Origin: an uncultured Clostridia bacterium
Lineage (GTDB): Bacteria > Bacillota > Clostridia > Christensenellales > CAG-314
DNA: 64,000 nt
Assembly: GCA_944364615.1 (NCBI GenBank)
Contig: CALVWF010000001.1
Coordinates: 257,840 to 321,839 of the forward strand
Direction of reading: 5' to 3'
The stretch's first letter is position 1. The number at the start of each line of letters is the position of its first letter. Below the pieces are notes generated by a model that ran no database searches, was not told the origin of the DNA, and saw only the letters and a program-made list of their open reading frames with translations. Shown in pieces: positions 5,126 through 45,900 of this stretch. The translations under genes and the position numbers were made by a program.

Positions 5126-6217
5126 ATGAAAGTTCTTGTAGCGGGAGATTCGTTTAAAGGAAGTCTGACGGCATTTGAATTTACCGAAACGGTAGCAAAA
5201 GTACTGCGTTCACACGGGGCGGAATGCCGTGTTCTTGCGCTGTCCGACGGCGGAGAAGGGTCGTTGGAAATACTTACAAAACTGTTTGACGGACGCATTG
5301 AAAAAACGGTTGCAAGCAACGCACTGCTCAACCCCGTGACCGTGAAAACGGGCATAACGGACAAAGCCTGTTTTATAGAAAGCGCGCAGGCAATAGGTCT
5401 TCCCCAACTGAAAGGGAATACGGACATCTGCCAAACGTCTTCCTACGGAGTGGGCGAAATGATAGCCTTTGCGGTAAAACACAATCTGAACGACATAGTG
5501 TTGACGCTGGGGGGCACTGCTTCCGATGACGGAGGAGCGGGCATGCTGTGCGCATTGGGAGCGCGATTTTCCGACGGGCAGAGCGATTTTATACCCACTT
5601 CCGGAACACTTTGCCGTATAAAATCCTGCGATTTAACTCCTTCAATACGGCTGTTGGAACATACTCGCGTTACAGTACTGTCCGATGTTAAAAATCCGCT
5701 GTTGGGAAGTAACGGGGCGACATACGTCTACGCTCCGCAAAAGGGAGCGACCGCTGACCTCCTGCCTTTTCTTGAAAAATCGATGGAACACTACGCAAAT
5801 ATCGTCAATCGCCACACCCATACCGACCGCACCGCTTGCCCGGGCGCAGGTGCCGGAGGCGGTCTGGGATTTGCGTGTATGCAGTTGCCACATGTGACGT
5901 TTTTACAGGGAAGCAATGCCATACTGGATATGGTAAACTTCGACGGTCTGGTTAAACAATGTGACTGGGTAATAACGGGAGAGGGAAAGTTCGACAAGCA
6001 AAGTTACATGGGAAAAATAGTCGGCAACGTGATAAACAGAAGCAAAGGCAAAAACATCGCTGTGATTTGCGGTGTAGCCGATGAAGAAATGTACAACGAC
6101 AAAAACATAAAACTGCTCAGGGAAATAGGCAAAAACAAGCCCGACTCTCTCACAAACGCAAAGAAATATCTGACGGAAGAAACGGAAAAACTGTTTCCCT
6201 TGCTGTCAGGTTGTTGA
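5126..6217 (+). CDS. glxK: Glycerate kinase
   Basis: A 363-residue cytoplasmic kinase of the GlxK/GarK family (about 370-380 residues), which phosphorylates D-glycerate with ATP, most often to 2-phosphoglycerate. The N-terminus MKVLVAGDSFKGSLTA is the family hallmark, and an LSDGGEGSLE segment at about residues 32-41, a GGTASDDGGAGML loop near 131-143 and ITGEGKFDKQS near 284-294 are all conserved. The ATG is placed by the AAGTGAGG ribosome binding site. It stands alone with its own promoter, oriented opposite to its neighbours, and is convergent with the glycan operon; both end at the shared terminator at 6444-6472. Confidence 0.93.
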   Translation: MKVLVAGDSFKGSLTAFEFTETVAKVLRSHGAECRVLALSDGGEGSLEILTKLFDGRIEKTVASNALLNPVTVKTGITDKACFIESAQAIGLPQLKGNTDICQTSSYGVGEMIAFAVKHNLNDIVLTLGGTASDDGGAGMLCALGARFSDGQSDFIPTSGTLCRIKSCDLTPSIRLLEHTRVTVLSDVKNPLLGSNGATYVYAPQKGATADLLPFLEKSMEHYANIVNRHTHTDRTACPGAGAGGGLGFACMQLPHVTFLQGSNAILDMVNFDGLVKQCDWVITGEGKFDKQSYMGKIVGNVINRSKGKNIAVICGVADEEMYNDKNIKLLREIGKNKPDSLTNAKKYLTEETEKLFPLLSGC

Positions 6218-6443
6218 AAGGCATTTCCGTTTTAAAACGCTTTGTTTAAACGCGACAAAATAAACTTGCCCCCTTTTGTCGAATATTTCGGCAAGCAAAC
6301 TTACGTAGTCGCCTGATTTACTTGTTTCGGGCAAAAGCTTTCTGATTTCCGACAAAACCGCAAAAACAAACCTCGCTTAATACTGAACTTTGTTACGTTC
6401 CAAAGCCGTTGTAGAATAATAACACTTTTGTTTACCTACAAAC

Positions 6444-6474
6444 AAAATACCGGAACATTTGTCCGGTATTTTTT
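6444..6474. terminator. Bidirectional intrinsic terminator between convergent genes
   Basis: A perfect 11-bp stem (6444-6454 with 6462-6472), loop of 7 bases, with the A-rich left arm and T-rich right arm giving a U tract in both directions. It serves glycerate kinase on the plus strand and the GH2 gene, the last of the long glycan operon, on the minus strand. The rest of 6218-6618 shows nothing gene-like. Confidence 0.85.
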
Positions 6475-6618
6475 CGATATTGAAATTAAGTAACAGTCAC
6501 TTTTGTCGGCGTTTAGCAAATAGTTTCCCTTTAGACGATTGGGGTACTGTCTTGACAACAGGAAATAAACAAGTTGATTGTCTTTGCACAGCATTTGTCC
6601 GCCGTGTCTGTTAAACAT

Positions 6619-9390
<2,772 letters not shown>

Positions 9391-9402
9391 TTAAAATAAA
9401 TT

Positions 9403-10914
9403 TCAAAAAACAGCCTTGGCAGTTACGGCGTCAAACAAATGGAGTTTGTTGCGACGGAAACTTACCTTTACTACCTCTCCCACTTCCACTGTCGTATCTG
9501 TGGGCATCTTGAAGACAAAAAGTCTGTCAGCCACTTTGATTTTTACGTGATATTCGTCACCCAGCAATTCTTTGCTTTCCACCACGCCACTGACAGCGCC
9601 GTTTGCGTCGATAAAAATATCTTCCGGTCTTACTCCGAGTTTCAAATCAAACCTGTCGTCTTTCAGAAGCGTACCGATCTTGTCGATTTTTTCGTCGTAT
9701 TCCTTGCCGACGGCGCTTTTCAACGCTTCGTTGCTTACTCCATCCAACTCCTGTCGCCGTTGTTCTTCGAGCAAACTTTTCTGCTTGCGGTAAAAATCGG
9801 TAAGTCTGTCGTGCAAATCGTCGCTGCCGTAAACGACATTGTCGCCTATCTGCAAATTGCCGTTGCTGAATGCGACAGGCGTGATGTTCATGTTGGGAGA
9901 TCCTATAAACGTAGCCACGAACAGCGAATTGGGATGTTCGTAAACTTCTTTAGGCGTTCCTACCTGAATTATTTTCGCCCTGTCCATAACGACTATTCTG
10001 TCAGCCATCGTCATTGCTTCCACCTGATCGTGAGTTACATATACGGTAGTCGCTCCGATACTCTTGTGCAGTTTAAGTATTTCCGAGCGCATCGAATCCC
10101 TCAACTTGGCGTCCAGATTGGACAGCGGTTCATCCATAAGCAACAACTTGGCGTTGTTGACTATTACTCTGCCCAACGCCACACGCTGACACTGTCCGCC
10201 CGACAACTGAGCGGGTTTGCGTTGCAGCAATTCCTTCAGGTTGAGAATTTCGGCGGCAAAATTGACCTTGTCTTCCACTTCTTTGGCGGTCAGTTTGCGA
10301 TACTTGAACAAGGGTATCTCGTGAGTCATGTACTCTTGTATGTCGTGGTCTATGTTCTCAATGTCTTCTTTATTGTTCGGATCGTGTTTTAAAATCCACC
10401 TCTTTTCCTTCTCGAGAAAAGCAATTGCGTCGTGGTCTATACCCACCACCTGATTTCCCTCTTTGTCGTAAACGGGGGCTTTGACCTTTTTTATCTTCAG
10501 CCCGTAAGCGATATTTTCGTACGCGGTAAGGTGAGGAAACAACGCATAGTTCTGAAATACCATGGAAATGCCCCTTTCCGACGGAGAAAGCAGATTGGAG
10601 TAAACGCCGTCGATAAACAGCGATCCCGCGCTGATCTCTTCCAGTCCGCAAATCATTCGCAAGGTGGTCGTTTTTCCGCATCCGGACGGACCTACGAAAA
10701 CCACGAATTCGCCCTTTGATATTTCCAGATTAAAGTCTACAACGGCGTGATAACCGTTGGGGTATATTTTCTGTATGTGTTGCAGACTTACAAAACTGTC
10801 CTGCGGACATTGCGGAGCATTCGACTTCTCCCGTTCTGCCTGACTTTTGACCTTTTGGACGTAGTGAGCAATCATAAGTTCTCTGACGTTATTTTTTTCT
10901 TTTTTCTTAAACAT
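9403..10914 (-). CDS. ABC transporter ATPase of the MsmK/UgpC/MalK family
   Basis: A 503-residue nucleotide-binding subunit for carbohydrate uptake. Walker A GPSGCGKTT at 75-83, Q-loop Gln121, signature LSGGQ at 237-241, Walker B LLLMDEP at 257-263, then the SNLDAKLR D-loop and a C-terminal regulatory TOBE region. Typical members have about 365-380 residues. The extra length comes from a 45-residue charged N-terminal extension, an insertion of about 65 residues between the Q-loop and the signature (about 144-210) and additions in the C-terminal region (about 365-425). It follows the two permeases and the 39-residue peptide. The second transporter (36860-40023) has no ATPase of its own, so this protein may serve both. 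Confidence 0.93.
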   Translation of the reverse strand: MFKKKEKNNVRELMIAHYVQKVKSQAEREKSNAPQCPQDSFVSLQHIQKIYPNGYHAVVDFNLEISKGEFVVFVGPSGCGKTTTLRMICGLEEISAGSLFIDGVYSNLLSPSERGISMVFQNYALFPHLTAYENIAYGLKIKKVKAPVYDKEGNQVVGIDHDAIAFLEKEKRWILKHDPNNKEDIENIDHDIQEYMTHEIPLFKYRKLTAKEVEDKVNFAAEILNLKELLQRKPAQLSGGQCQRVALGRVIVNNAKLLLMDEPLSNLDAKLRDSMRSEILKLHKSIGATTVYVTHDQVEAMTMADRIVVMDRAKIIQVGTPKEVYEHPNSLFVATFIGSPNMNITPVAFSNGNLQIGDNVVYGSDDLHDRLTDFYRKQKSLLEEQRRQELDGVSNEALKSAVGKEYDEKIDKIGTLLKDDRFDLKLGVRPEDIFIDANGAVSGVVESKELLGDEYHVKIKVADRLFVFKMPTDTTVEVGEVVKVSFRRNKLHLFDAVTAKAVF

Positions 10915-10946
10915 ATTTATTCCTCTATGGCAGATAACTCTATTTT

Positions 10947-11066
10947 TTATACCTTGGGACTGTAAAATCCGTATTTGTTAGCCAATGCAACGTAAACGAT
11001 CATCGCTGCGACCGTGAGGGTTATAAGAGTTATCCAAACAAAGCAAATGATGCGATTTTTTCTCAT
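10947..11066 (-). CDS. 39-residue single-pass membrane peptide between permease and ATPase genes
   Basis: An open frame of 39 codons with start ATG at 11066-11064 and stop TAA at 10949-10947. The start lies 3 bases after the stop of the permease gene and has a good ribosome binding site, AAAGGGGTGA, about 4-5 bases upstream. The product starts MRKNR, has one hydrophobic helix (about residues 6-29, IICFVWITLITLTVAAM...) and ends with a short polar tail GFYSPKV: a positive-inside N-terminus, one span, and a small exposed tail. Its position within the transporter cluster suggests a small accessory subunit or stabiliser of the ABC complex. I do not recognise a family. Confidence 0.7.
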   Translation of the reverse strand: MRKNRIICFVWITLITLTVAAMIVYVALANKYGFYSPKV

Positions 11067-11069
11067 ACG

Positions 11070-11984
11070 TCACCCCTTTATTCCCGAAATGGCATTGGAT
11101 TGTATAAAAGCCTTGTTAAGCGCTATAAACAGCAGTATTATCGGCAATGACGACATAAACGCCGCCGCCATCATAAAGGGCATGTCTATAGAAGCCTGCG
11201 AAGTCACGTCGTTGAGCAACAACAGCGCGACCTGCACTGTCTTGACGGACGGGTCGGTAAGATAAATGGACGGACCGAAAAAGTCGTTCCAGATACCCAC
11301 AAACCAAAACAGAACCTGAGCCACGATCGCCGGTTTTATCAAAGGCACAACCACCTTAATAAAAGTCTTGAACCAACCTGCGCCCTCTACCCTCGATTCC
11401 TCGATGAGCGAATCGGGAACAACGTTTCTGATCGTTGTTATTAAAAACAGCATCATTCCGACGTTGCCGAAAAAGCCGGGGATTATCAACGGCCACAATG
11501 TATTTACCAATTGCATTTCGCTGAACACACGGTACTGAGGCAACATCACCGCAGCATAAGGAACCATCATTGACACCAGCAGAACAATCAGTATGGTGTT
11601 TTTGTAAGGAAACTTCATTTTGGCAAATGCAAACGCCGCCAATGTTGATACGAACGTTCCCACGGGAATCACAAGCACTTCTATTATAAGCGTGTTTTTT
11701 ATTGCGTCGAGCATGTTAAAGGAGGACAGAGGATATCTCTCGTTCCCCGTAAACACGTCTACAAAGTTGTCCCAGACGGGATTTTTAGGCCAGAAATTCT
11801 TGTCAATCGTTCCGGCAATGGCTTCGGCGGGCGTTTTCAATGCGTTGATGATCATATAGAAATACGGAAAAATCATCAGAAAAGCACCGAAGCAAACGAT
11901 TACCGTACTTATCACAAACAATGTTCTGTCGGTAATTTTTCTTTTTTTGTAATTCAACGAAATCAGACTTTCTCTGTAACTCAT
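11070..11984 (-). CDS. Carbohydrate ABC transporter permease, MalG/AraQ type
   Basis: A 304-residue inner-membrane protein with six predicted spans. The cytoplasmic EAA loop (EESRVEGAGWFKTFIKVVVP, about residues 200-219) contacts the ATPase and marks a CUT1-type sugar importer. It pairs with the permease encoded just upstream, whose stop overlaps its start by 4 bases. The binding protein, two permeases and ATPase form one complete importer; substrate is probably an oligosaccharide handled by the GH43- and GH2-type enzymes of the operon. Confidence 0.93.
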   Translation of the reverse strand: MSYRESLISLNYKKRKITDRTLFVISTVIVCFGAFLMIFPYFYMIINALKTPAEAIAGTIDKNFWPKNPVWDNFVDVFTGNERYPLSSFNMLDAIKNTLIIEVLVIPVGTFVSTLAAFAFAKMKFPYKNTILIVLLVSMMVPYAAVMLPQYRVFSEMQLVNTLWPLIIPGFFGNVGMMLFLITTIRNVVPDSLIEESRVEGAGWFKTFIKVVVPLIKPAIVAQVLFWFVGIWNDFFGPSIYLTDPSVKTVQVALLLLNDVTSQASIDMPFMMAAAFMSSLPIILLFIALNKAFIQSNAISGIKG

Positions 11985-12892
11985 TTTATTTGTCCCCTGA
12001 ATACCGACGAGAATTTAAACAAAATCACCGTGATGACAAGTATTATAAGCACAAGTATCATACTTGCCGCAGACGCGTAGCCGTATTGTGCCGAATTGAT
12101 ACCGTTTGTCCATATATAATACACTATAGTTCGGCCTCCGGGCAATCCCTGCGCGAAAACCGTCGAATCGGCGTAATTTTGCAGACCTGTCATTACGCCC
12201 GTGGTGATAATGTAAAAAGTAGTCGCATTAGTCATTGGCATAGTCACGTCTACAAATCCGTGCCATGCATTTGCGCCGCACACCTTGCCCGCTTCGTAGT
12301 AAGAACCCGGCACGGACGTCAGTACAGCAAAATACAGTATCATCGATCCGCCCACGGACGCCCAGACGTTCTTGACAATGATCGCTATCTTTATAAGCCA
12401 CGGGTCCGCTCCCAGCCACTTAAGGTCAACGCCGAACAATGTGTTGATAAGTCCTCCGTCGCTTCGGAAGATATCCCTGAACACCAGCATTATGGCAATC
12501 GAAGATGTAACCGCCGGAAGGTAGTACAGAATCATCAGCACTATTCTGCCCTTTGCCAGTTTTTTAAGATAAATTGCCAGAAGCAATCCCAAAAACGTGC
12601 CTATGGGTATGGACAGCAACATTATAACCGTGTTGAAAAAAGCCGTGCGGAAAAACTCTTCTTTGAATATCGCAACGTAATTCTGGAATTCCACAAACGT
12701 ATACGTGCCCTTGATGGGATTGTAATCGGTAAAGGACATGTAGAAGGAAAATCCCAATGCGGAAAGAGTAAACACCAGAAAGCCTATCACAGGGACGGCG
12801 ACAAACGCGTATCCATGCAATGCTTCGCTGACCTTGTCGGTTAATTTTTTCCGATGAGGTTTCGGCTTGTATTTAAGATCTAATTCGTACAT
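11981..12892 (-). CDS. Carbohydrate ABC transporter permease, MalF/UgpA type
   Basis: A 303-residue permease with a cytoplasmic N-terminal tail rich in Lys/Pro and six membrane spans. The EAA loop reads YYEAGKVCGANAWHGFVDVT in the C-terminal half, with Gly-Ala conserved. It forms a heterodimer with the MalG-type permease downstream, with which it overlaps by ATGA-type coupling of 4 bases. The start is 4 bases after the stop of the solute-binding protein gene, so the cluster is certainly one transcript. Confidence 0.93.
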   Translation of the reverse strand: MYELDLKYKPKPHRKKLTDKVSEALHGYAFVAVPVIGFLVFTLSALGFSFYMSFTDYNPIKGTYTFVEFQNYVAIFKEEFFRTAFFNTVIMLLSIPIGTFLGLLLAIYLKKLAKGRIVLMILYYLPAVTSSIAIMLVFRDIFRSDGGLINTLFGVDLKWLGADPWLIKIAIIVKNVWASVGGSMILYFAVLTSVPGSYYEAGKVCGANAWHGFVDVTMPMTNATTFYIITTGVMTGLQNYADSTVFAQGLPGGRTIVYYIWTNGINSAQYGYASAASMILVLIILVITVILFKFSSVFRGQIK

Positions 12893-12896
12893 AATA

Positions 12897-14276
12897 TCAT
12901 CCCAATCTTTGTCTTGTCTTGGTCAATTCCTGTTGGTAAGTTTCCTCGTATTCTTCTATTACCTGACGGGCTGTTTTCAGTCCCGCCCAGACATCGTTGA
13001 ACTTGTCCATCAATGCGTCGTAGGCTATTTTGTCGTATGTGTAGTAATAAGGTCTCGATTTGCCGAAAATATTGTCGTCGGCTTCGTTTATTACGTCCAC
13101 GAAAACTTGCTTGGATTGAGGATATTGATAAATACCGTCCAATTCGACGTTGTTCACCCAATCGTCTACCGCCATTTCCTCAATGTTGGGCATTGCCTGT
13201 CCCAACTTGTAGTTGTACTTGGCACATTCTTCGCTGCAAGCAAGATACTTTGCCAGTTCCACGGCGGCTGCCTTGTTGTCCGATGCCGCTGAAACGCCGT
13301 AAGCGACGGTGCCTATGGACGCACAGGAAACGGAACCTTCCGCGTCGCCCTTGGGGGCGGGTATCACATCGAATTCAAATGACAATCCTTCCCAGAACGT
13401 CGCAATGTCCCAAGGTCCCATCCACGTAAACAGATAGGTGTTGGAGGCAAATCTTGAAAAGGACGAACCCGACGTAGAGTAATCTGCCGCAAGTCCGCTT
13501 GTAGACAAATCGGCAACAAACTGTATGGCGTCGATGAAATTGTCGGTGCCTATAGCGGATGTGGTAGCGCTGTCGTCCGTGTAGAAATTAGCGTTGTTGG
13601 AGTAAACCGCCGATTGCACATCGTAGTACGCCAGAGGTATCACTTCCGAGCCGTCCACTTGCAGTCCCTTGAATTCGGACAGATAATTTTTAAATTCGGT
13701 GAAAGTCATCGGTTCGGTATTCGAAGGCAGATCCACGTCGAGGTTGTAGTCTTCTATCAACTGAAGCATCAGATCTTTGTTGTAGACAAGCGCGAGCGGT
13801 CCCAGATCCTTGGGCAAACCGTATATTTTGTCTCCCGTTCCCACCGTCTTGGTAGTTTCGTCGTATCTGAATATGTCAATGGACATATCCCACATCTTGT
13901 CGATTTCTTCCTGATCAAGATAGGGTGTAAAGTCCACTAATTTGCCTGAATCGGCCCACTTAATGTAATCCCAGTCGGGTACATAAAATATGTCGGGCAG
14001 GTCGTTTGCTCTGTTTATCAGGTTTTGCGAATAAGTGGATGTGTCGCTGATCGCACTGTAAAACACCTTGACATTGGTGTACTTTTTCATAAACTGGTTG
14101 ATCATGTACTGGAAGTTGCTTTGTTCGGCAACACCGCCCCATCCCAAAAAGTCTATTTCGTATTCCTTGTCGGGGTCAAACGGTTCGTATTCCTGACTGG
14201 TTTGCGCACCGGGGGTGCACGCCGTCAGGGAAAAAAGCAACACCAAAATCATCAAAAACGTAACAATTTTTTTCAT
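12897..14276 (-). CDS. Extracellular sugar-binding lipoprotein of an ABC transporter
   Basis: A 459-residue family 1 solute-binding protein. Signal peptide of about 19 residues with lipobox LTAC and Cys20 as the acylated residue, so it is anchored outside the membrane. The mature part has the usual two-lobed character: IDFLGWGG at the first strand, an aromatic- and Gly-rich middle (FTWMGPWDIATFWEG) and a helical C-terminus. It captures the sugar for the permeases encoded directly downstream. It follows the GH43-type gene by 18 bases. Confidence 0.92.
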   Translation of the reverse strand: MKKIVTFLMILVLLFSLTACTPGAQTSQEYEPFDPDKEYEIDFLGWGGVAEQSNFQYMINQFMKKYTNVKVFYSAISDTSTYSQNLINRANDLPDIFYVPDWDYIKWADSGKLVDFTPYLDQEEIDKMWDMSIDIFRYDETTKTVGTGDKIYGLPKDLGPLALVYNKDLMLQLIEDYNLDVDLPSNTEPMTFTEFKNYLSEFKGLQVDGSEVIPLAYYDVQSAVYSNNANFYTDDSATTSAIGTDNFIDAIQFVADLSTSGLAADYSTSGSSFSRFASNTYLFTWMGPWDIATFWEGLSFEFDVIPAPKGDAEGSVSCASIGTVAYGVSAASDNKAAAVELAKYLACSEECAKYNYKLGQAMPNIEEMAVDDWVNNVELDGIYQYPQSKQVFVDVINEADDNIFGKSRPYYYTYDKIAYDALMDKFNDVWAGLKTARQVIEEYEETYQQELTKTRQRLG

Positions 14277-14294
14277 TGCGGGTCTCCTTTTCGT

Positions 14295-16721
14295 TTATAA
14301 TACAGTTATTTTCAGATTGTTGAAACGTGCGTTTATAAAATTGGAATAAATTCCGACGTAGCCGCGCGTTCTGCCGAGATTGCTCGTCGTCTGCAAAATC
14401 AATTCGCCGTTGATGTAGAAACTGAGTTGTTTGCCTTGCTTGACGGCAGTCAGGTGATAGGTGACGTCCATATCCATAAAGTATATGTCACGGCAGGATT
14501 CGTCGGTATACTGATAGTTTCCTACCATTATTTCCGCCTTGTTGTTGTTTACCATGAAGTAGTAGCCCTGCATGGATTTGTAATTGTCCAGATCGAGGTT
14601 GGTAAACGCAAAGTTGTCGGCGGCAATGACAATACCGCATGTTCCCGTACCGTTTTCCCCATAAAGACTGACATCCAGATCCACCTGCACGTCTTCCAGT
14701 CCGCCGTTGCCGAAAGTCACAAGGTATCTTGCGGAAGTGTCGCTGTAAAAACCGTCCTTGTCCTTGTTGAAGAAAGTCGGGTAATTTATTCCGCTTTGCG
14801 GATAAGTCAATAAATCCTGTTCGTAAACGTATCCTTCCACGTTGAAATTCCTTTCCAGATGCATCATGTTGAAAGTTACGTTTTCGTCCAATGCAACTAC
14901 CGTCAGATTGTGAGCGCCTCTTTCCAACTTAATGTCGGCGACCTTTACCCTTGCGTATCCCGCCATGTCGGTGGAGCCTATGTTCCATTTGTATATTTTG
15001 CCTCCGTCCACCTGAATACCTACCGTCTTACCGAAAGATGTACTTGGCACTACCATGTCCAGTCCGTAAGAACCGCTTTCCGCAGCAAATATTTCATATG
15101 TAGCGTAGTCCATCGGTGAGGACAACACGATGTCTTTGGTTCCCTGTACATATTCGCCATCCAGTTCGGAGTCGGTGTTTTGCAAAGGATCTTTTGCGGA
15201 AAACTCGGAAAGGCTGTCAGTGTAGGAATTTGCGGGAATGTTTTCCTGTTTCAACGTGAGTTTGTCTCCGTCCCCCTGTGCGGAATTGTTGAAAGTAAGA
15301 CAACCCTTGTAAGAGTAGGTGTCGGAGTACCCCACCTTGCCACCGCCGAATTCGCCCACTTCCACGTGTGCAGCAACTTCCTGCTGATCGATGGAAATGT
15401 TGGCGGTGCCGTTTTTGTAAGAAATCATAAAGGTGTGCTGAACGTCCGTACTTAACGGACGGTAAGCGTCAGCCTCGCCCACCAATACGTCCGATCCGTT
15501 TGTGACCTTGCGTATACTGACCGTCGTTCCGTCAAAACTCATATAGCCGTAATTGGACGCGTCTTTGTAAGAAAACACCATTTTTCCGTTGCCCGTAACG
15601 TTGTATTCGACGGTAAAACTGTCTTCTGTCTGTTCCGATGAAAGCAGGAACGAACCGTCAGTAGAAAGGTTTGCTGAATTGAAGTTACGGTAGTCGGGCA
15701 ATCTCGGCATAATGTTGTCGTACAAACCGTTGTGTTGCATCACGATTTCGTTGCCGTTCATCAACAGTCTTGACAAATTAAACCGTCTGCCTCCCGAATT
15801 GCCTTCCATATAAGAGTTGTGATAGCCCATATACACCGAATCGAGGTCGGGTCCCATGACTACCGTACAGTGTCCCAGTCCGTACCAATCGGGGTCGGTG
15901 TTGAGCACCACGTTGTGACCTTGCGTTATGTTGTTGCCTGACATTATGCTTTCCGAAGCGTCCTGATAGGAATAGTCAACTCTGTAAGACCACTGCGTTA
16001 CGCCGTTTCCCGTGTAGAAGTAGTACCTTGTGCCGTTTTTGGTAAATACTTCCGGTCCCTCCGTCCAACCTTCCATAGAAGTGTTGGGAAGCAGGATGGG
16101 CGTGTCTGCGTCCGTCATGGCGTCGTTCATAGTCTTTGCCGAAATTCCGCCCGATGCGGCAAACAGCAGCACCATTTTGCCATCTGTGTCCATATACAGC
16201 GATCCGTCTATACGGGATTCGTCCAAACGCGAACTGATGACTTCGAAAGGACCTATCGGACTCTGACTTCTTAAAACGTAGTGTCCCTTGCCGTTGCTCG
16301 ATTCCACCAGATAAAAATAGCCGTCAAGATAATATACTTCGCTTGCCCAGGCGTCGAAACTTTCCGCCACGTCGGGACCTACGACATAACCGACGGGATC
16401 CACACCGTTGTCCACTTCTTCCCAGTGATACAGATCGGTGGATGTCCAGCCTTTTACGCCCTTTTCCGTAGCCTTGGTGGAACAAATCAGATAGTAACGA
16501 CCGTCAAATCTGTATATGTAAGGGTCTCCCAACCCGTATTCCGCCCATTGATCGGGAAGCCTGTCTTCCAGAAAGGTGTTCTGGTACAACTCCGGCATTT
16601 CCGGCACGGTGAGCAACAGGTCGGAAGTTTTTACCACAACATCCTTTACCGTTGCGGGGGAACATGCGCCCAATGAAACAAGCATAACTAAGGCGCAAAT
16701 TATACAACCTAATTTTTTCAT
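14295..16721 (-). CDS. GH43-type glycoside hydrolase lipoprotein with C-terminal binding domains
   Basis: An 808-residue surface lipoprotein (lipobox LGAC, Cys20). Residues about 60-330 form a five-bladed propeller of the GH43 type: GDPYI with the likely base Asp66, WASEVYYLDG (cf. the common WAPEV) near 125-134, IDGSL with Asp172 as likely pKa modulator, and TEGPEVF with Glu224 as likely acid. The C-terminal 450 residues hold two sandwich domains of the LamG/DUF1080 kind (the last ends RFNNLKITVL) and a CBM6-like sandwich between them, probably for glycan binding. GH43 enzymes mostly cut alpha-L-arabinofuranosyl, beta-xylosyl or beta-galactosyl links. Likely role: trimming glycans at the cell surface before import. 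Confidence 0.82.
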   Translation of the reverse strand: MKKLGCIICALVMLVSLGACSPATVKDVVVKTSDLLLTVPEMPELYQNTFLEDRLPDQWAEYGLGDPYIYRFDGRYYLICSTKATEKGVKGWTSTDLYHWEEVDNGVDPVGYVVGPDVAESFDAWASEVYYLDGYFYLVESSNGKGHYVLRSQSPIGPFEVISSRLDESRIDGSLYMDTDGKMVLLFAASGGISAKTMNDAMTDADTPILLPNTSMEGWTEGPEVFTKNGTRYYFYTGNGVTQWSYRVDYSYQDASESIMSGNNITQGHNVVLNTDPDWYGLGHCTVVMGPDLDSVYMGYHNSYMEGNSGGRRFNLSRLLMNGNEIVMQHNGLYDNIMPRLPDYRNFNSANLSTDGSFLLSSEQTEDSFTVEYNVTGNGKMVFSYKDASNYGYMSFDGTTVSIRKVTNGSDVLVGEADAYRPLSTDVQHTFMISYKNGTANISIDQQEVAAHVEVGEFGGGKVGYSDTYSYKGCLTFNNSAQGDGDKLTLKQENIPANSYTDSLSEFSAKDPLQNTDSELDGEYVQGTKDIVLSSPMDYATYEIFAAESGSYGLDMVVPSTSFGKTVGIQVDGGKIYKWNIGSTDMAGYARVKVADIKLERGAHNLTVVALDENVTFNMMHLERNFNVEGYVYEQDLLTYPQSGINYPTFFNKDKDGFYSDTSARYLVTFGNGGLEDVQVDLDVSLYGENGTGTCGIVIAADNFAFTNLDLDNYKSMQGYYFMVNNNKAEIMVGNYQYTDESCRDIYFMDMDVTYHLTAVKQGKQLSFYINGELILQTTSNLGRTRGYVGIYSNFINARFNNLKITVL

Positions 16722-16723
16722 TG

Positions 16724-19069
16724 TTAACCTCCGATAGTCACAGTGCCGTCAGGCGCTACCTTGATGAATGTCGACGGATCCGCAAAGTCGGGTTTCTGAC
16801 CGTTGAATATCAGGTAGTCGTTTGTTGCGGCAGCGTCATTCCAGTATCCCAACGCAAACGCTATGACGCTGTCCTGCGAACCGCCGAAAATTTCGTAACT
16901 CAAATGTATGTAAAGTTTGTTTTTGTAACGCACTTCGAAACGTGCGTTGATGTTTTCTTCGTAGTTGTATTTGTTTTGTTCCAATCCGTTTTCGTTGTAT
17001 TGTCTGTAAGCCGCCACAGCCCGTCCCGGATAAATGCTGAGATGGTAACACTTTTCGTCAAGTCGGTTGTTTCCGTCGTAATCGGTGTCAACATAGACGT
17101 TTAAAGAATGTGCCTGTATTGCCATATCGAAAGAAGCGTCTCTTTGCTCTAAAACTATCGTCACGCCTTTGTCGTCTCTGTACACCGAAACGCCGTATTT
17201 AACTGCGTCGGCTACGGACGGGAAATTTCCTATTTCGTTGAGATAGGTAACGGTGTCCGACGGAACGGGTTCAGCGTTTGCCGATGCGCTGAACAATGTC
17301 GAATCCACGTCCAGCCTCAGGTAATTGCGCGGGTATTCCGCCTGAATGTATTTGTTGTTGTGGTCGTACATTCCTGCCCAGTTCCAGTTGCATTTTATTG
17401 CGAAATACAACCCGAAGATTTCATCGGGCTCCACTCCTATAAAATCGTAATCGATGTCCGCTTCCACAAAATACAGATCGTTTATTCTGCCCGACGTCCA
17501 GGAAAATCCCGTACGAGGCAACGTCAGATCGCCGTAGTTTTGGAAACCGACAAGACCGTCGGTATAGGATATGTCCAGACGGTAATCGGTTCCGTCGCGC
17601 TGTTCGAAAGCGGACGAATCCTTGGTGTCGATAAACAACTCGAAGTAAGATCCCGCCCCGCCGTCCATCGGTTCGGCTGTTTTAAACAATACTTTAAATG
17701 ACTTGTTGTCTTCGTTTCTGAGCACTCTTGCCTGACCGAAACCTACCGTGCTGTCGCCGAATCCCACCGTTGAACCGTAGTTCTCGTCAAGAGCGACAGA
17801 TTGAATTGCCGTTGTTTGTCCCACGGCTATTTCGGCAAACTCTACCGTCTTGGTGTACGGACTGTGACCGTCAGCAGCAAACGTCACTTGGTTGTCGTAG
17901 CCGAAACAGGTTGCCTCAAAGGAGTATTTGCCCTCCGAGTCGGTTGTAGCCGAACTTTCGTTGACCGTTACCGTTGCTCCCGCTATAGGAGTAACTCCGT
18001 CTCTTTCGGTTATTTTTCCTTCAAATACGGTGTTGTAGTAGCTTTCCTCTTCTTTGAGCAACACCTGATTGTAAGAAATGTCTTGTTCCTTGATTATTTC
18101 CTTTTTGGAAAGAGTGTGAACGTAAGTTAAATAGCCGTTCTTTTCAAAGGACAGACTGAAATTGTCCGTTCCTTCGAGTTTTACCCTGTAGTTACCGTTT
18201 GTGTCGGTAAAACCGACCTCTCCGGCGGAGGTTACGACCTTGGCAAGGGCTACGGGATCATTGTTCAGGTCCTTGACCGTACCGGACACGGTAGCCGACA
18301 CCGGACATTCGTCCAGAGTGTAAAACTTGTTGTCCGTGTGCAATGTCAGATAGTTGTCGGGAACCTTGGGATCAACCGAGCCGTGCCATACAAACCCTGT
18401 ATTTCCCGTCTTGGTAACTCTTGCAAAAGCAAAGGACGTTGGGGTGTATTTGTCCACGTCGGCGCCCAGAACGCTGTAAGAAATGTACCCTTCGACGTTA
18501 AATCCTTCGTCTATATCGGTGCCGTCGTTCACCGTACCGTATGTAAACACCTTTGCAACAAATCCCGTAAGATACGAGTAGACTCTGGATGCCACAGATA
18601 CTCTGAATTCGTAGTCGGTGGAAGTCATTGTCTTGCCGCCCAGACCGTATGTAGACAAGTACAACTCCACCGAGTCGCTTTGCGCGGTGGAAATATTGAT
18701 GTCTTCCACCGTCAACGCCGAAAGATATTCGTCTTTACACTCAAAAAGAAAGTAGATTGCAGATTCTCCCTTGTAAATAGATACGTAGGTCTGCTCGTTT
18801 CCTTCGATGTACACTTCGTGACGTCCCGAACCCGTTGGGTAGTCGTACTCTTCGTCTCTGACGCCGTCTATTTCCAGTTCGGGATCGGTGTAAATGCCGA
18901 TATTGTCAAATTCGCCGCCTGTCGCGTCGTCCCGTTCACCCTCGGTAAGCAACGAATCGTTGTCTATAAAGTTGTACTGCACGTCTTTTTGCGAACAAGC
19001 AGTCATAATACACGCAACCATCAGTACAACCAGGATCAATCGTATCAAACGCAATTTGTTTTTATTCAT
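16724..19069 (-). CDS. Surface lipoprotein with CBM9-like and carboxypeptidase-regulatory-like domains
   Basis: A 781-residue lipoprotein (lipobox IMTAC, Cys25). Domain order: a CBM9-like sandwich (about 55-250: IDGVRDEEY opening, AQSDSVELYL), two carboxypeptidase-regulatory-like beta domains (about 255-325 with VSGTVKDLNNDPVALAKV and about 342-410 with FEGKITERDGVTPIAGATV), then two more CBM9-like sandwiches (about 430-600 and 610-780). No catalytic signature is visible. A glycan-binding or display protein is the best guess, acting with the GH43-type lipoprotein and the binding protein encoded downstream. The gene is separated by 2 bases from the GH43 gene. Confidence 0.75.
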   Translation of the reverse strand: MNKNKLRLIRLILVVLMVACIMTACSQKDVQYNFIDNDSLLTEGERDDATGGEFDNIGIYTDPELEIDGVRDEEYDYPTGSGRHEVYIEGNEQTYVSIYKGESAIYFLFECKDEYLSALTVEDINISTAQSDSVELYLSTYGLGGKTMTSTDYEFRVSVASRVYSYLTGFVAKVFTYGTVNDGTDIDEGFNVEGYISYSVLGADVDKYTPTSFAFARVTKTGNTGFVWHGSVDPKVPDNYLTLHTDNKFYTLDECPVSATVSGTVKDLNNDPVALAKVVTSAGEVGFTDTNGNYRVKLEGTDNFSLSFEKNGYLTYVHTLSKKEIIKEQDISYNQVLLKEEESYYNTVFEGKITERDGVTPIAGATVTVNESSATTDSEGKYSFEATCFGYDNQVTFAADGHSPYTKTVEFAEIAVGQTTAIQSVALDENYGSTVGFGDSTVGFGQARVLRNEDNKSFKVLFKTAEPMDGGAGSYFELFIDTKDSSAFEQRDGTDYRLDISYTDGLVGFQNYGDLTLPRTGFSWTSGRINDLYFVEADIDYDFIGVEPDEIFGLYFAIKCNWNWAGMYDHNNKYIQAEYPRNYLRLDVDSTLFSASANAEPVPSDTVTYLNEIGNFPSVADAVKYGVSVYRDDKGVTIVLEQRDASFDMAIQAHSLNVYVDTDYDGNNRLDEKCYHLSIYPGRAVAAYRQYNENGLEQNKYNYEENINARFEVRYKNKLYIHLSYEIFGGSQDSVIAFALGYWNDAAATNDYLIFNGQKPDFADPSTFIKVAPDGTVTIGG

Positions 19070-36859: not shown

Positions 36860-37717
36860 TTATTTTGTACCCGTAAGGGCGATACCTTCCACTATGCGTT
36901 TTTGGAAAATTGCATACAAAACCATAGGAACAATAAGCGAAATCAGGGTTGCCGCAATTACAACACCGTAATCGCCGGCATAAGATACGTTAAGCATTCT
37001 GATTATTTGCATTATTTGCGTCAGTCCTGCATTTTCCATAACCGTCAACGTCGGCCATATAAAACTGTTCCACGCTCCCATAAAAATTCCCACTCCGTTG
37101 ATGACCATAGGCGTAACGGAAAGAGGAACGTATATCTTAAAAAAGATTCCTATATTTGAACAGCCGTCTATTTCGGCAGCCTCCTCAATGTTACGAGGTA
37201 TATTCAGATAAAATTGCCTGAAAAAGAATATCTGATAGGCGTTGGCCATCCCCGGAACAAACAGTACAAATATTGTATCAACCATGTTGAGCATATTTAC
37301 TACTCTGATAGAAGTCAGCATAATGGTAATTCCCGGGATGAACATGGGAAACAACAATAAAGGCCAAAGAAACTTTTTAAAAGGAAACTCTATGCGAGCA
37401 AGCGCGTAAGCGCACAGCATGTTTACGAACAATGATCCTATGACAGACAAAACCGCAACCGCCAGAGTTATAAAAATAGACTGTAAGAAAGTCGTTCCGT
37501 TTATATCCGCGCTGAACACTTTTTCGAAGTTTTGCCACGTGAAATTCTGCGGAAAGAATGTGTTAGGAACGCTGAACAATTCACTTTTTCCCTTGAACGC
37601 GGCAGGAATAATCCATATAATCGGGAAAAACACAATCAACGCAACCAGGACAGCAATCGCAATCAATATTGCTTTTTTTATTTTCTTTTTCGTCTTGTTG
37701 GCAATTGAACGTTTCAT
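36860..37717 (-). CDS. Carbohydrate ABC transporter permease, MalG/AraQ type (second transporter)
   Basis: A 285-residue permease with six spans; the N-terminus is strongly basic (KRSIANKTKKKIKK). The EAA loop reads IEEAAEIDGCSNIGIFFKIY in the second half. It pairs with the permease encoded 6 bases upstream. The GH172 gene starts 18 bases downstream. No ATPase gene occurs in this operon, so the importer must borrow one. Confidence 0.93.
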   Translation of the reverse strand: MKRSIANKTKKKIKKAILIAIAVLVALIVFFPIIWIIPAAFKGKSELFSVPNTFFPQNFTWQNFEKVFSADINGTTFLQSIFITLAVAVLSVIGSLFVNMLCAYALARIEFPFKKFLWPLLLFPMFIPGITIMLTSIRVVNMLNMVDTIFVLFVPGMANAYQIFFFRQFYLNIPRNIEEAAEIDGCSNIGIFFKIYVPLSVTPMVINGVGIFMGAWNSFIWPTLTVMENAGLTQIMQIIRMLNVSYAGDYGVVIAATLISLIVPMVLYAIFQKRIVEGIALTGTK

Positions 37718-37723
37718 GTCTTG

Positions 37724-38638
37724 TCAGTCCTCCATTTTTTCGGAATGAATACACTTGAAAGCAATAATATTGATTGTCACAATAACTATCATGATCAGGA
37801 TAGAACCTGCTATAGTTACGTTTTGCGGACGGTTTACATCCCTGAAGGAGTTAAAAAGATACAACGAAGGTGTCATTGTCATGTCGAGCGGTCCGCCACC
37901 CGTAATCATGTACGGAATGTCCAACATCTGCAGACTGCCCGTGATCAGATTTATCAACGAAAGAATAAATATATTTTTCATGTAGGGTATGGTCACATAT
38001 ATCATCTGCTTGAAAAAACCTGCACCGTCTATCTGCGCCGCTTCGTAATAACTCTTGGGAACATTCAGAAGTCCGGCATACATTACCAGTGTGTTGTAAC
38101 CAAAGCCCAGCCACCAGGTGGGCACAATTACACAAGCAATAGGCCAATACCCTTCGGTGGCAAAGGCAATAGGATCTATATCCAGCCCTATAAGAATTGA
38201 AGTAATCAACCCTCCGCCGTAGTTGAGAATAAACATGAATATAATCGACGCAACTACACCTGAAATAAGACAGGGCACGTACAACAATATTTTTACGGCA
38301 TTTGCAACTTTTGCATTTATTGCTTTTAACACGTGTGCAAAAAAGAAGCTCAATACCATCTGTGCCACCACAATTATTGCCGTAAATAAAATGACGTTTC
38401 CGAATGCCTTGGTGAAGGATGGCGTTTTCACAATGTAATCGTAATTTTCAAACCACACAAATTCACCCGTCGTGTAATTCTGAAAAGATCTGACAATTGC
38501 CATTGCAAGAGGGATGTAAGCAAAAATAAGTAACAACAGGACAGCGGGCGCCATCATGGCAAACGCACTTTTAGCATTTCTGTATTTGAACAAACGTGGT
38601 TTTTTACTTTTGTCAGAATAATTACTTAACATTTTCAA
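37724..38638 (-). CDS. Carbohydrate ABC transporter permease, MalF/UgpA type (second transporter)
   Basis: A 304-residue six-span permease. The EAA loop is YYEAAQIDGAGFFKQMIYVT, with the conserved Gly and Ala. Its start overlaps the stop of the binding protein gene by 4 bases. It is the partner of the MalG-type permease and would carry the sugar or oligosaccharide delivered by the lipoprotein encoded upstream. Confidence 0.93.
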   Translation of the reverse strand: MKMLSNYSDKSKKPRLFKYRNAKSAFAMMAPAVLLLLIFAYIPLAMAIVRSFQNYTTGEFVWFENYDYIVKTPSFTKAFGNVILFTAIIVVAQMVLSFFFAHVLKAINAKVANAVKILLYVPCLISGVVASIIFMFILNYGGGLITSILIGLDIDPIAFATEGYWPIACVIVPTWWLGFGYNTLVMYAGLLNVPKSYYEAAQIDGAGFFKQMIYVTIPYMKNIFILSLINLITGSLQMLDIPYMITGGGPLDMTMTPSLYLFNSFRDVNRPQNVTIAGSILIMIVIVTINIIAFKCIHSEKMED

Positions 38639-40023
38639 TCTCCGTAATCATATTTGGGATTAGAGGGATAATTACTTCTTGACATAATAATTTCAATGTT
38701 TTCCTGTGCGGTTTGCAAAGCCGTAGCATACAGTGTTTCAAATGCACCCGTCTTGCACCTGACTTGCATTGTTTCGAAAATCTTGCCGGTTTCCAGAGAA
38801 ATGTCCCAAGGATAGGTTGCTTCGGGAATACCCGTTGCCGCCACATCATTGACAACCTTAATCCACTCTTGCGGCACTTCACTGTTGTAACCGTCCAAGT
38901 AATCTTTGACAGACTGTGATGTGGGTGCTTTGGAATTATATGCCTCTATAAAATATTGCGCGGTTCTCTCGGCATTTTCCGTAAACATCCAGTTTAAAAA
39001 CTTTGCCGCTTTATCGGCATTTTTAGACTGTTTGGAAATGCAATAGCACCATCCACCGTTTGCACTCGTCGTGCCGGTCTGATCACCGCTTTGGGTGGGT
39101 ATAGGCGCGACACCGATATTGTCGATAATTGTTTGATCCGACTCTGTATAATTGTATATTTCGGCAATGCTCCAACTTCCGCCAAACGTCATTGCCAATT
39201 TGGGATTATTGTCACACAGCGCATCTACAATGTAGGTATATCCTTCAGAAGTCAATGCAGATGTCGGAGCCCAATCGTTAGAGAAAATAGTATAGAAAAA
39301 CTCCGCTATATCTTTGAATCCGGGTTCATCAAGACGACTTACGCGCCAACTTTCATCGAGCGTCAGTCCTCCGGTGGTATTCTGTTGCATTCCGTATGTG
39401 ACCCACGTGCATTCGTAACTGCCCAGCGGCAGTCCGATACAGTATTGTCCTCTGGACAGTATTCCGCTCAGTTTTTCACATGCATCGTACAATTCTTCCC
39501 ATGACGTGGGTACTTTTTCAATACCTGCTTCTGCAAACAAGTCCTTGCGGTAAAAAAACATACTGCCCGGTTCCATATTCCAAGGATATGCGTATATTGA
39601 GTCGTTGTAAGTTACCATCTCTTTGCATACGTCAAGGATGTCATCTACCGCCTCGGTCGAAAGGTATTCGTCAATAGAAATACAATAGTTGTTCTGTATA
39701 TTTGTGTAAAGTTCGCCGTAAGTAGTCATGTATAAATCGGGAGCCTTGCCGTTTTCTCTGGCTACAGTAAGAGCATCCGCATATGTGTCCTGCGTGTAAA
39801 ATTGAATCTTTACCTGAATTCCGTCCGTCAAATCTTTGTTGAATTCATTTGCAAGATTGTTTAAATGATCTTTAGCCCATTGTTCGAACTCACGTGCGTA
39901 AACTTTAATTTCCGTTGCCCCTTCTTCCACATAAACTTCCTCGCCGCCGGGAGTACATCCGCTGATAAGCAGCGCAGAAAGCAGCATTGTTAAACAAATT
40001 ACCAGTGCCAAAATTTTTCTCAT
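38635..40023 (-). CDS. Extracellular sugar-binding lipoprotein (second transporter)
   Basis: A 462-residue family 1 solute-binding protein with lipobox LISGC and Cys23. The mature protein begins with a Gly-Gly-Glu linker and a KVYAREFEQW strand, and has WNMEPGSMFFYRKD near the middle and the Trp- and Asn-rich ligand regions usual in this family. The start follows AAAAAGGAGG. It is the first gene of the ten-gene operon and lies about 90 bases downstream of a perfect LacI-type palindrome. Confidence 0.92.
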   Translation of the reverse strand: MRKILALVICLTMLLSALLISGCTPGGEEVYVEEGATEIKVYAREFEQWAKDHLNNLANEFNKDLTDGIQVKIQFYTQDTYADALTVARENGKAPDLYMTTYGELYTNIQNNYCISIDEYLSTEAVDDILDVCKEMVTYNDSIYAYPWNMEPGSMFFYRKDLFAEAGIEKVPTSWEELYDACEKLSGILSRGQYCIGLPLGSYECTWVTYGMQQNTTGGLTLDESWRVSRLDEPGFKDIAEFFYTIFSNDWAPTSALTSEGYTYIVDALCDNNPKLAMTFGGSWSIAEIYNYTESDQTIIDNIGVAPIPTQSGDQTGTTSANGGWCYCISKQSKNADKAAKFLNWMFTENAERTAQYFIEAYNSKAPTSQSVKDYLDGYNSEVPQEWIKVVNDVAATGIPEATYPWDISLETGKIFETMQVRCKTGAFETLYATALQTAQENIEIIMSRSNYPSNPKYDYGD

Positions 40024-42816: not shown

Positions 42817-42955
42817 GCCACTTAAACTTTATAAATTTACCTAATGAGGTACGAATAGGCATTTCGTATCTCTATTTCCTGTTAGGTAAAAGTTTGAGTG
42901 GCATCAATCGGAGATACAATGCAGGGCGTGTCTTCGGTTGGAGGCACGCTTTTTT
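42817..42955 (+). ncRNA. Structured leader RNA with intrinsic terminator, candidate riboswitch or attenuator
   Basis: About 139 nt between promoter and coding region. Outer stem P1: 42817-42829 with 42890-42902 (13 pairs, one U-G). P2: TTACCTAA 42837-42844 with TTAGGTAA 42882-42889. P3: 42846-42855 with 42863-42872 (10 pairs, one G-U), 7-base loop TAGGCAT. P1 and P2 are separated by a 5' bulge, P2 and P3 by a one-sided 9-base bulge. GAGATAC at 42911-42917 could pair instead with GTATCTC of P3. Then comes a terminator hairpin (42926-42935 with 42940-42949) and TTTTTT at 42950-42955, only 17 bases ahead of the ribosome binding site of the BspA-like gene. I match it to no known riboswitch class; a stand-alone small RNA is the alternative. 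Confidence 0.6.
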
Positions 42956-42986
42956 GCTCTGCGAAATTGGCTCGGAGGGCTATCCT

Positions 42987-45900
42987 ATGAAACGAAAGTT
43001 GGCATTGGTTTTTTTAGCAGTCGTCATGGTTATGGCGGCGGCGTTCGGCTTGGCTGCATGCGGGGATAAACCGGCAGAAAACCTCGACGAATACGAAGAA
43101 TTTGAAACGGTTGTAAAAACCGTCCTCAACAATAGCGTGAACAAGATGGGCGAAGAAGCGGAAGCCGCCGCGTTACGTGCTACATCTTTCAATGTCATGC
43201 CGCTGGCATTTACGCAGGAGGAAAAGGAGGATTTATTCGGCATCATTGACAAATATTCTTCCGATGCCGAAATTATGGAAAAAAACTACGTCAAAGGGAT
43301 GTTTGATCTCGTCACACAGACGACGATGGCATTTCCGCTGATCGCGGGTGACGCGCTACGCACTTATCCGAAAGTGAGCGAATTTTACGGCGTTTCCGTC
43401 GGCTGCCGCGAAGAAGGCGTCTATATCCGTGTGAATAAAGATGAAACGTTATATACAACTTCCGTTTATACCGGCGGCGGAAATTATTCCGAGAGTTACT
43501 ACCGCATGGAGATCGATTACAAGAGCGAAACGGAGTTTTCGTTCATGATATTTCAGGATTCGCCTGCGAATGCGGAAACGAATATGGACGCCTATAAAAT
43601 GTTCTATTACGGCGACAGCGAAATGAATTTTCTCAACGGCATATTCAATGACGAAGGAGGCATGTTTGCCTATTATAAGAGCGGTGTTGACTACGTGCTC
43701 AACTCCGCTGCCGCCGCCAAGGAGATGTACCCGCTGTTGAGCGCGGGCTTTGAAAACGTCGACCGCGAGGAAATAAAAGCGATTGGCGCTGACACCGACC
43801 ATATCGTTACCGCCGAGCAGTGGGCGGAATGCTATCTGAAATATATGAATGGCGGCGAACATTTTGACGGGCAAGACGGACAGTTTGAAATCAAAAACGG
43901 CGTTTTATACGGCTGGATAGGGAAAGAGGAAGATTGCCCTTCCGCGGTTACACTCCCTTCCACGGTCAGCTCTGTCTATTATGAGCTGCGCTTTCCCGAT
44001 CACGTAAAGGAGATCTCCATTCCCGCAACGGTTCAATCGGTAAAAGTTGAGCGCGGAACGCTCGAATGGCTGGAAAGCGGCAACGAAGGGACGGACGAAA
44101 CGCTCGTCGAATGTCCTGTAAAATATTTCACCATCATTTTGAATACGCAGGATGGATCGTATAAATTTCTCGAAAAAATCGACGTGTCCGCGCAGTCTCC
44201 GCTGTTCGAATCGGACGGGAATTTCCTTTATTCCAAAAAAGACGGCATGCTGCTCTATGTGGCGGGCGCGGATAAGCTCACTTCCTTATCCCTTGACACA
44301 GAACTTTCCGACAGAGCATTGATCTGCCTTGCGGGCAGCGATCTTTCAAACCTGAAAACACTCACAGTCAACGAACAGACGGCGGAGGCCGCAACGTATG
44401 CCGTCTTTGATTCCACAAACGGAGAAATCCGACTGAACACGTTCAATATGAATCTTTCGGGAGACATGTTCGGCGGAACGTTCGGGGGAGCAGTCCACTC
44501 GATCGAAACGGTCAACATTACATGCGACAACGTTCAAACGGAGCGGGAAATTGATTTTGAGTGCACTATCGGCACGCTGAACATCGGCGGGAACGGCGTC
44601 TGCCGCATCGATACGACTTCCGTGATACAAAAAGTCAACGCCGATTTTACCGGAACACTCTCGCTGGATTCCATCGACAACGGGCAGATAAAAAACATAG
44701 AACTTTCCGATGGAGTGGAAACATTCACGGCGTTCAGTCCCGTTCCCATGACCGTAACGCTCCCGTATTCGCTGTATGCGTTCAAAGCGGCTGATAAGTA
44801 CAATTTTTCAGATCTTAACAGCCTAATTAGTGAGCTGAACTGGGAAGATTTGCTCGGAAAAACCGAACTCAAAGCTGAGGTCAATCATGACGGCAATGTT
44901 TTTTATCATACATACCGTTTTGCCGCCATGACGAAAGAAGAAGAGATAGAATGTAAAAAATTTGCAGACTTTAAGGATGTCTATTATTATACGGCGGAAG
45001 AATCGGAGTACGGCGTGCTGTACGCAAAACTTTCCTGCTATTGGGGAGATGACAGCATCGTTAATGTGCCGGAAACAATCAACGGGTATCCCGTATTGGA
45101 ATTTGAACTTGCAACGCATCCTTCATGGGGCGGATACCCTCCGGTGTCGGTGGAGAATGTAAAAGAAGTACATTTGCCTGCTTCTCTGAAAAAGTTTGAT
45201 ATAATGAATTGGTCAGCTGACGAAAAGCAATATGCTTTGGAAAAAATCGTCTTTGGCGGAACGAAAGAAGAATTTTTGAAAATCATTAACGATATAGATT
45301 TTTATGCCCTATATTCCATGCTGGAATATACCGATGAAATAGAATGTAAGGACGGAACATTTACACAACAACCTATGCGGGAAAGCTGGTTCTTTGCTGA
45401 TGAAAACGATAATATTTTGCAAATAGACCTCGATTGGAGCGAATACGATACAAATTACAATGTAAAAGAAATTCAAGTCAGGCTCGTCTATAACGGAAAT
45501 GAATATTTCGTACACGATTTTAATCGAAATCCAAACCTATATTTCCAATTCGGTAACGGCGAAACTGCCGAAGGGGAAATGAAGGACTATATTTCAGTCC
45601 AATTTGAAGCAACTCAGTACGACAGTGAAATCAATCGAAAAGTTATTAAAAATTTACAAGTTTATTATAGCGCAATCGGTGATTTGAATTTTACTCTCGT
45701 TTCGACGGAAGAATTTACGGGAACGATCGAGCACGATTTTTCCGTATCGCATACGCGCGAGCCGGATTGCTTGGCCGGCGGTGGCACCGATTGGTATTGC
45801 TCCGTGTGTGGGATGTTCGGTTACGTTACGGACGAAGAACCGCCCCTCGGGCATGACTCCGATGAATACGGCACATGTAGCCGCTGCGGTCAGAATACTT

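Follow-up and report, generated by a model that had tools for sequence, protein, structure and literature searches.

Few membrane machines have been studied as closely as the MalFGK2-type sugar importers, which are considered complete with four kinds of part. We know of no small subunit of the sort described below in the CUT1 systems of E. coli and B. subtilis. Elsewhere, KdpF is a small single helix encoded within the operon of the KdpFABC transport ATPase, and the gene for CydX sits in the operon of cytochrome bd oxidase. CydX is a hydrophobic helix of 37 residues and a component of its complex (PMC4325964, PMC6005532). AcrZ (49 residues) and YajC each lay a single helix on the membrane domain of AcrB, changing transporter activity (PMC10710835), and LucB is an additional small membrane subunit that belongs to the Mce1 lipid importer, an ABC-type system, in one transporter lineage only (PMC9882608). 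Passages of a review of transporter modulators name SgrT, MgtS, MntS, AcrZ, WatS1, MgtR, MgtU and FeoC, as well as LucB, and in those passages no small protein of a sugar ABC importer is among them (PMC10710835). Further, a limited search of the open-licence literature showed no CUT1 importer with a small subunit.

In the 64,000-nucleotide stretch of DNA analysed here (hereafter, the window), a small ORF (sORF) inside an operon for sugar import is a conserved gene that codes for protein, and purifying selection acts on the protein it encodes. We consider it somewhat better than an even bet that its product is a small membrane protein accessory to one clade of CUT1 importers, with putative binding and function there. 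The operon, on the minus strand, runs from a GH43 lipoprotein through a sugar-binding lipoprotein, a MalF-type and a MalG-type permease, the sORF and a MalK/MsmX-type ATPase to a LacZ-type beta-galactosidase:

14295..16721, minus strand: GH43 family lipoprotein, 808 aa (Pfam Glyco_hydro_43, E 1e-32)
12897..14276, minus strand: sugar-binding lipoprotein, 459 aa (Pfam SBP_bac_1, E 4e-23; best NCBIfam model GanS, 8.9e-14, far under its cut-off)
11981..12892, minus strand: MalF-type CUT1 permease, 303 aa (Pfam BPD_transp_1, E 2e-9)
11070..11984, minus strand: MalG-type CUT1 permease, 304 aa (Pfam BPD_transp_1, E 5e-16)
11073..11080, minus strand: ribosome-binding site (RBS) of the sORF, TAAAGGGG, overlapping the last permease codons (sequence, duplex energy)
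10947..11066, minus strand: sORF, 39-aa single-helix membrane protein (open reading frame, homologues, selection)
10983..11051, minus strand: approximate transmembrane segment, codons 6-28, including the invariant W11 and Y25 (hydropathy, AlphaFold2 helix, alignment; exact ends estimated)
9403..10914, minus strand: MalK/MsmX-type ATPase, 503 aa (Pfam ABC_tran and TOBE_2; best PDB relative MsmX, 6yir)
10306..10467, minus strand: ATPase insertion of about 54 residues (150-203), located between Q-loop region and LSGGQ (alignment to MsmX)
6619..9378, minus strand: LacZ-type GH2 beta-galactosidase, 919 aa (Pfam Glyco_hydro_2_C, Bgal_small_N)

The operon thus holds the parts of a CUT1 importer, namely an extracellular sugar-binding protein, two BPD_transp_1 permeases and an ATPase with a C-terminal TOBE domain, and these belong to the same families as their counterparts in GanSPQ/MsmX and MalEFGK2.

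The sORF extends from ATG to TAA (11066..10947, minus strand) and encodes the 39 residues MRKNRIICFVWITLITLTVAAMIVYVALANKYGFYSPKV. A first-pass annotation had placed this frame 3 nt after the permease gene and 32 nt before that of the ATPase, and both distances are correct: the permease stop TGA (11072..11070) is followed by CGT and then by the sORF ATG, and positions 10915-10946 separate the end of the sORF from the ATPase start. The strong RBS that it had described is there also. Scored against an assumed 16S tail, TAAAGGGG reaches -12.4 kcal/mol, the strongest value among the 7 operon genes scored (the remaining six range from -6.1 to -10.7 kcal/mol), and only one of 400 random ATGs on the same strand has an RBS as strong; because part of the site doubles as the end of the permease gene (K-G-stop), it is not independent evidence. 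The single membrane helix that had been proposed agrees with a hydropathy maximum of 2.66 (19-residue window) and with an AlphaFold2 model of the window member, based on an alignment of three rows, that predicts one helix over residues 2-32 (mean pLDDT 83.5). The first-pass annotation had thought the frame short enough for routine gene calling to miss; common gene finders take frames as short as about 90 nt.

Short length is the one feature that would favor a chance open frame. We regard that explanation as negligible: when gaps were simulated behind the real permease end, a frame starting with ATG, 39 residues or longer and with a comparable helix and RBS, appeared in 3 of 20,000 trials with the composition of the gap, a comparable frame appeared in 4 of 20,000 with that of the window, and the real frame has seven homologues. 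The permease and the sORF happen to share a reading frame in the window (TGA CGT ATG, 11064-11072, minus strand), such that read-through would fuse the two. A fused product was considered and rejected, and the shared frame is probably a chance occurrence, since the frames differ in the two nearest relatives, L027 and L028.

These relatives came from a contig scan with the MalG-type permease of the window, which gave 12 loci (L027-L038). The permeases of L027 and L028, both labelled Anaeroplasmataceae, are the nearest (68 and 65% identity) and lie in syntenic operons, each with a homologous frame in the same place as the sORF (L027 4924-5079, 51 aa; L028 4923-5072, 49 aa), just where the first-pass annotation had advised looking. 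The three peptides align from the start codon without an internal gap, and their BLOSUM pair scores (83, 82 and 173 for the three pairs) were equalled by none of 2000 shuffles each, whether or not the shuffling preserved the hydrophobic pattern. A three-row profile built from them was applied to each frame in all the loci examined; it detected one in L031 (E 1.7e-5) and, more weakly, another in L029 (0.004). Both directly follow a GH43 gene that itself comes after the permease there, and equivalent frames were found in L030, L032 and L033 by reading the same junction. Diverged members following GH43 are therefore present in 5 of the 10 distant permease loci (L029-L038), and all seven members outside the window derive, according to their records, from metagenome-assembled genomes. 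The location between permease and ATPase, described in the first-pass annotation, holds for the window, L027 and L028; it is not a fixed feature of the gene, because the other five of the eight members follow GH43, with no ATPase within the stretch read.

In the alignment of eight, M1, W11 and Y25 are invariant, and the spacing from W to Y is always 14 residues, ungapped. The helix carries most of the conservation (W11, followed by I/L-I/V-Y25-V/I), the tail beyond it differs between members in both length and sequence, and positively charged residues are found at the N-terminus of every member. Leave-one-out profile searches returned the window member at E 3.8e-7 and the others at 3.3e-12, 1.8e-11, 5.3e-11, 2.5e-10, 1.5e-8, 1.2e-10 and 1.1e-10, values that are slightly optimistic because the omitted rows had helped to build the alignment; the best non-family frame with the eight-row profile, among 13,904 frames, had an E-value of 0.0016. 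By inspection, an RBS-like stretch lies upstream of 8/8 members, so that both the peptide and its start signal, on whose conservation in relatives the first-pass annotation had staked its claim, are retained. All eight operons contain both permeases, and seven contain the binding protein, which in L031 falls off the end of the stretch and in L027-L030 and L032 was assigned by length and a lipoprotein-like start rather than by Pfam.

Selection on the frame is evident at the codon level. Each of the five pairs tested shows an excess of synonymous over non-synonymous changes, the bias that had been suggested as a check: P is 4.8e-5, 1.9e-3 and 3.0e-7 for the three pairs among the window, L027 and L028, 3.0e-10 for L030-L032 and 1.4e-3 for L029-L033. 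Between L027 and L028, the first 39 codons carry 9, 1 and 19 changes at the three codon positions, and dN/dS is about 0.11, equal to that of the ATPase and higher than the values for the two permeases (about 0.06 and 0.04). Stops interrupt both alternative reading frames in the window, L027 and L028.

These results bear on the idea that the sORF is a translational spacer or coupler, handing ribosomes on from permease to ATPase while its peptide has no role. The junctions are tight enough for it: starts and stops overlap the neighbours or fall within a few nucleotides (the sORF overlaps both neighbours by 4 nt in L029, L031 and L033, and one more member does so at its stop alone), and the RBS in the window is embedded in the last permease codons. 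However, conservation at the protein level and the synonymous bias speak against a peptide without a role, five of the eight operons have the frame at a different junction, and elsewhere permease and ATPase genes are separated by just 4 nt (L085) or 13 nt (L026), with no sORF between them. In L030 and L032, the gaps from the sORF to its neighbours are 21-22 nt. Because the sORF changes place within the operon, we consider a mere spacer very unlikely.

Genome searches with the 39-residue peptide (its own genome and 41 of its family) and with the three-row profile (396 genomes of the order and 391 of the class around the window genome; 4 individually chosen genomes; 55 of the family, 160 of the order and 395 of the class around the L028 genome; the sets overlap) gave, between them, in-context matches only to the window, L027 and L028. 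Five weak matches whose surroundings were read (L083, L042, L044, L071 and L040) lay in other contexts. The sensitivity of this profile is low: members were found in 2 of 4 genomes and are present in all 4, and the genome-wide negatives are weak because the true members in the genomes of L029 and L033 were missed. Viral and plasmid collections contained no useful relative, and a profile scan revealed no second copy of the family elsewhere in the window.

The window member has no Pfam match. Across the eight members, no Pfam or NCBIfam match was convincing or at the curated cut-off, the best E-values being 0.003 (DUF5411) and 0.0049, respectively, each for one member of eight; the tables for several members list E-values without bit scores. 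A profile search of the PDB returned nothing significant (YajC, 2rdd_B, at E 0.6). Since there is no convincing Pfam/NCBIfam match, no significant PDB match and no counterpart in the review passages, the sORF protein is, as judged from sequence, a new family of small membrane helix encoded with a transporter. Its size and single hydrophobic helix would also suit a type I toxin-antitoxin toxin or a bacteriocin-like peptide. We find this highly improbable, as all eight members are inside sugar operons, no Rfam family occurs in window 6000-17500 (a new antisense RNA would be absent from Rfam), and bacteriocin matches were weak and confined to single members (E 0.11 and 0.71).

Compared with the systems introduced above, the sORF protein shares with the transporter-bound helices a predicted single helix of fewer than 60 residues (modelled for the window member only) that is encoded and co-inherited with a transporter. 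CydX likewise consists of one hydrophobic helix, but it serves another complex, and none of the Pfam matches for the eight is to a CydX model. Nor do those matches include a model for KdpF, which belongs to a P-type ATPase potassium pump, or for AcrZ, whose host is an RND exporter. LucB differs both in having several helices (TM2-TM4 are mentioned) and in its host, the Mce system, which is not CUT1 (PMC9882608). By analogy, the sORF protein may work like CydX, KdpF or AcrZ while belonging to none of those families, and the transporter-tuning role that the first-pass annotation had raised is plausible on the same grounds.

The inheritance of the sORF was followed on a tree of 18 MalG-type permeases (the window, the 12 loci and five further relatives; L024 and L025 were left out), built for this one protein of the operon and without a placed root. 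The eight rows that bear the sORF form one side of a single branch with 100/98 support. One change suffices to explain its presence, which none of 500 label shuffles achieved, and a single gain is the simplest reading of this unrooted tree. Outside the clade, no convincing profile match was present in the 8.6-8.9 kb read at L034-L038, and the larger stretches scanned around the five further permeases had no member. The stretches scanned in this way, L114-L122, surround seven permease relatives beyond the 12 loci (L119 for L024, L114 for L025) and two relatives of the ATPase, and none has a member; these absences cover the stretches read around the permeases rather than whole genomes. Horizontal transfer of the operon as a unit is suggested, because the window genome is of a different family from L027 and L028 (the 41 and 55 family genomes searched are separate sets) and the best other permease in its own family is only 36% identical. 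GC content is 42.6% in the window, 46.2% in the operon and 33-34% around L027 and L028.

Taken together, the evidence suggests an undescribed small helper of a sugar importer, and a role alongside the permease pair has the best support, because the sORF stays with the permease clade while moving from behind MalG to behind GH43. The protein would be synthesised beside the permeases, from a message shared with the membrane and secreted proteins of the operon, as its tight junctions with neighbouring genes also suggest, and would sit in the membrane as a single helix with its positive N-terminus in the cytoplasm; this predicted N-in, C-out topology follows from the N-terminal positive residues of all eight members and the one predicted helix. 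The helix is probably the working part, since conservation is mostly there and the tail is variable. It may pack against the MalF/MalG-type pair and, as CydX, KdpF and AcrZ do for their hosts, stabilise the complex or adjust its activity, stabilisation or activity control being the likeliest effect. A helical-wheel analysis gave no one-face pattern of conserved residues (power at 100 degrees, p = 0.67), so that no packing face stands out. The permease relatives L034 and L038 lie outside the clade and, in the stretches read, do without the sORF; CUT1 transport per se therefore does not depend on it.

Another product of the operon is a possible partner, because GH43 also accompanies the sORF as far as the operons were read. 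The protein might be a membrane adaptor that either directs turnover of the importer through a membrane protease or anchors or assists the secreted lipoproteins (GH43, binding protein). The former has a precedent in small proteins that direct the turnover of transporters by FtsH, for example MgtR and MgtU with MgtB (PMC10710835). Consistent with the latter, five of the eight sORFs lie between GH43 and a lipoprotein-like gene, and in the three such genes tested, which directly follow the sORF (L029 7103, L031 3949, L033 5617 (+)), the products have CBM9-like domains and are possibly surface glycan binders. Yet the gene after the sORF in the window encodes the ATPase rather than a lipoprotein, and L038 combines permease and GH43 with no sORF, which counts against GH43 itself as the partner. 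We deem such an adaptor unlikely, if credible.

If the sORF protein does act with the permease pair, one CUT1 clade may have a fifth kind of subunit, a dedicated single helix acquired once, kept through rearrangement, and altering coupling or stability as a standing part of a MalFGK-type machine; we offer this stronger version tentatively, at somewhat less than even likelihood. With a conserved additional helix in one of their clades, MalFGK2-type importers, too, would prove able to gain small regulatory subunits, and the case would provide an example of a gene that stays with its likely partner despite moving within the operon. The defined gene, the motif W-x13-Y in one helix and the set of operons are the basis for a direct test.

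The ATPase insertion is also present in L027 and, by the spacing from Q-loop to LSGGQ, in L081 (= L028) and other loci. As a candidate partner of the sORF it was rejected: ATPases with a similar Q-loop-LSGGQ length occur without an sORF (e.g. L085, L089-L093), and therefore the two are not tied.

The window importer probably takes up galactose-containing substrates such as beta-galactosides or arabinogalactan-type oligosaccharides. This is suggested by LacZ, by GH43 and by the surroundings of L027 (L112, 364-4095, minus strand), where Pfam matches place aldose 1-epimerase, galactokinase and galactose-1-phosphate uridylyltransferase (GalT) after LacZ. Judged by eye, three look-alike genes lie past LacZ in L113 (2190-5900, minus strand). 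The window is without this three-gene extension of both close relatives, and its gene after LacZ is on the opposite strand. L112 (11924-15322, minus strand) and L113 (13708-18087, minus strand) each also encode a very long lipoprotein-like protein (1132 and 1459 aa) that contains repeated segments and has only a weak DUF6250 match; its gene directly precedes that of the binding protein and is missing from that place in the window. Elsewhere in the window, a second binding protein and two permeases, CUT1-like by eye, are encoded at 36860-40023 (minus strand), and one open frame of 2300 codons (42894-49796, plus strand) lies among minus-strand genes.
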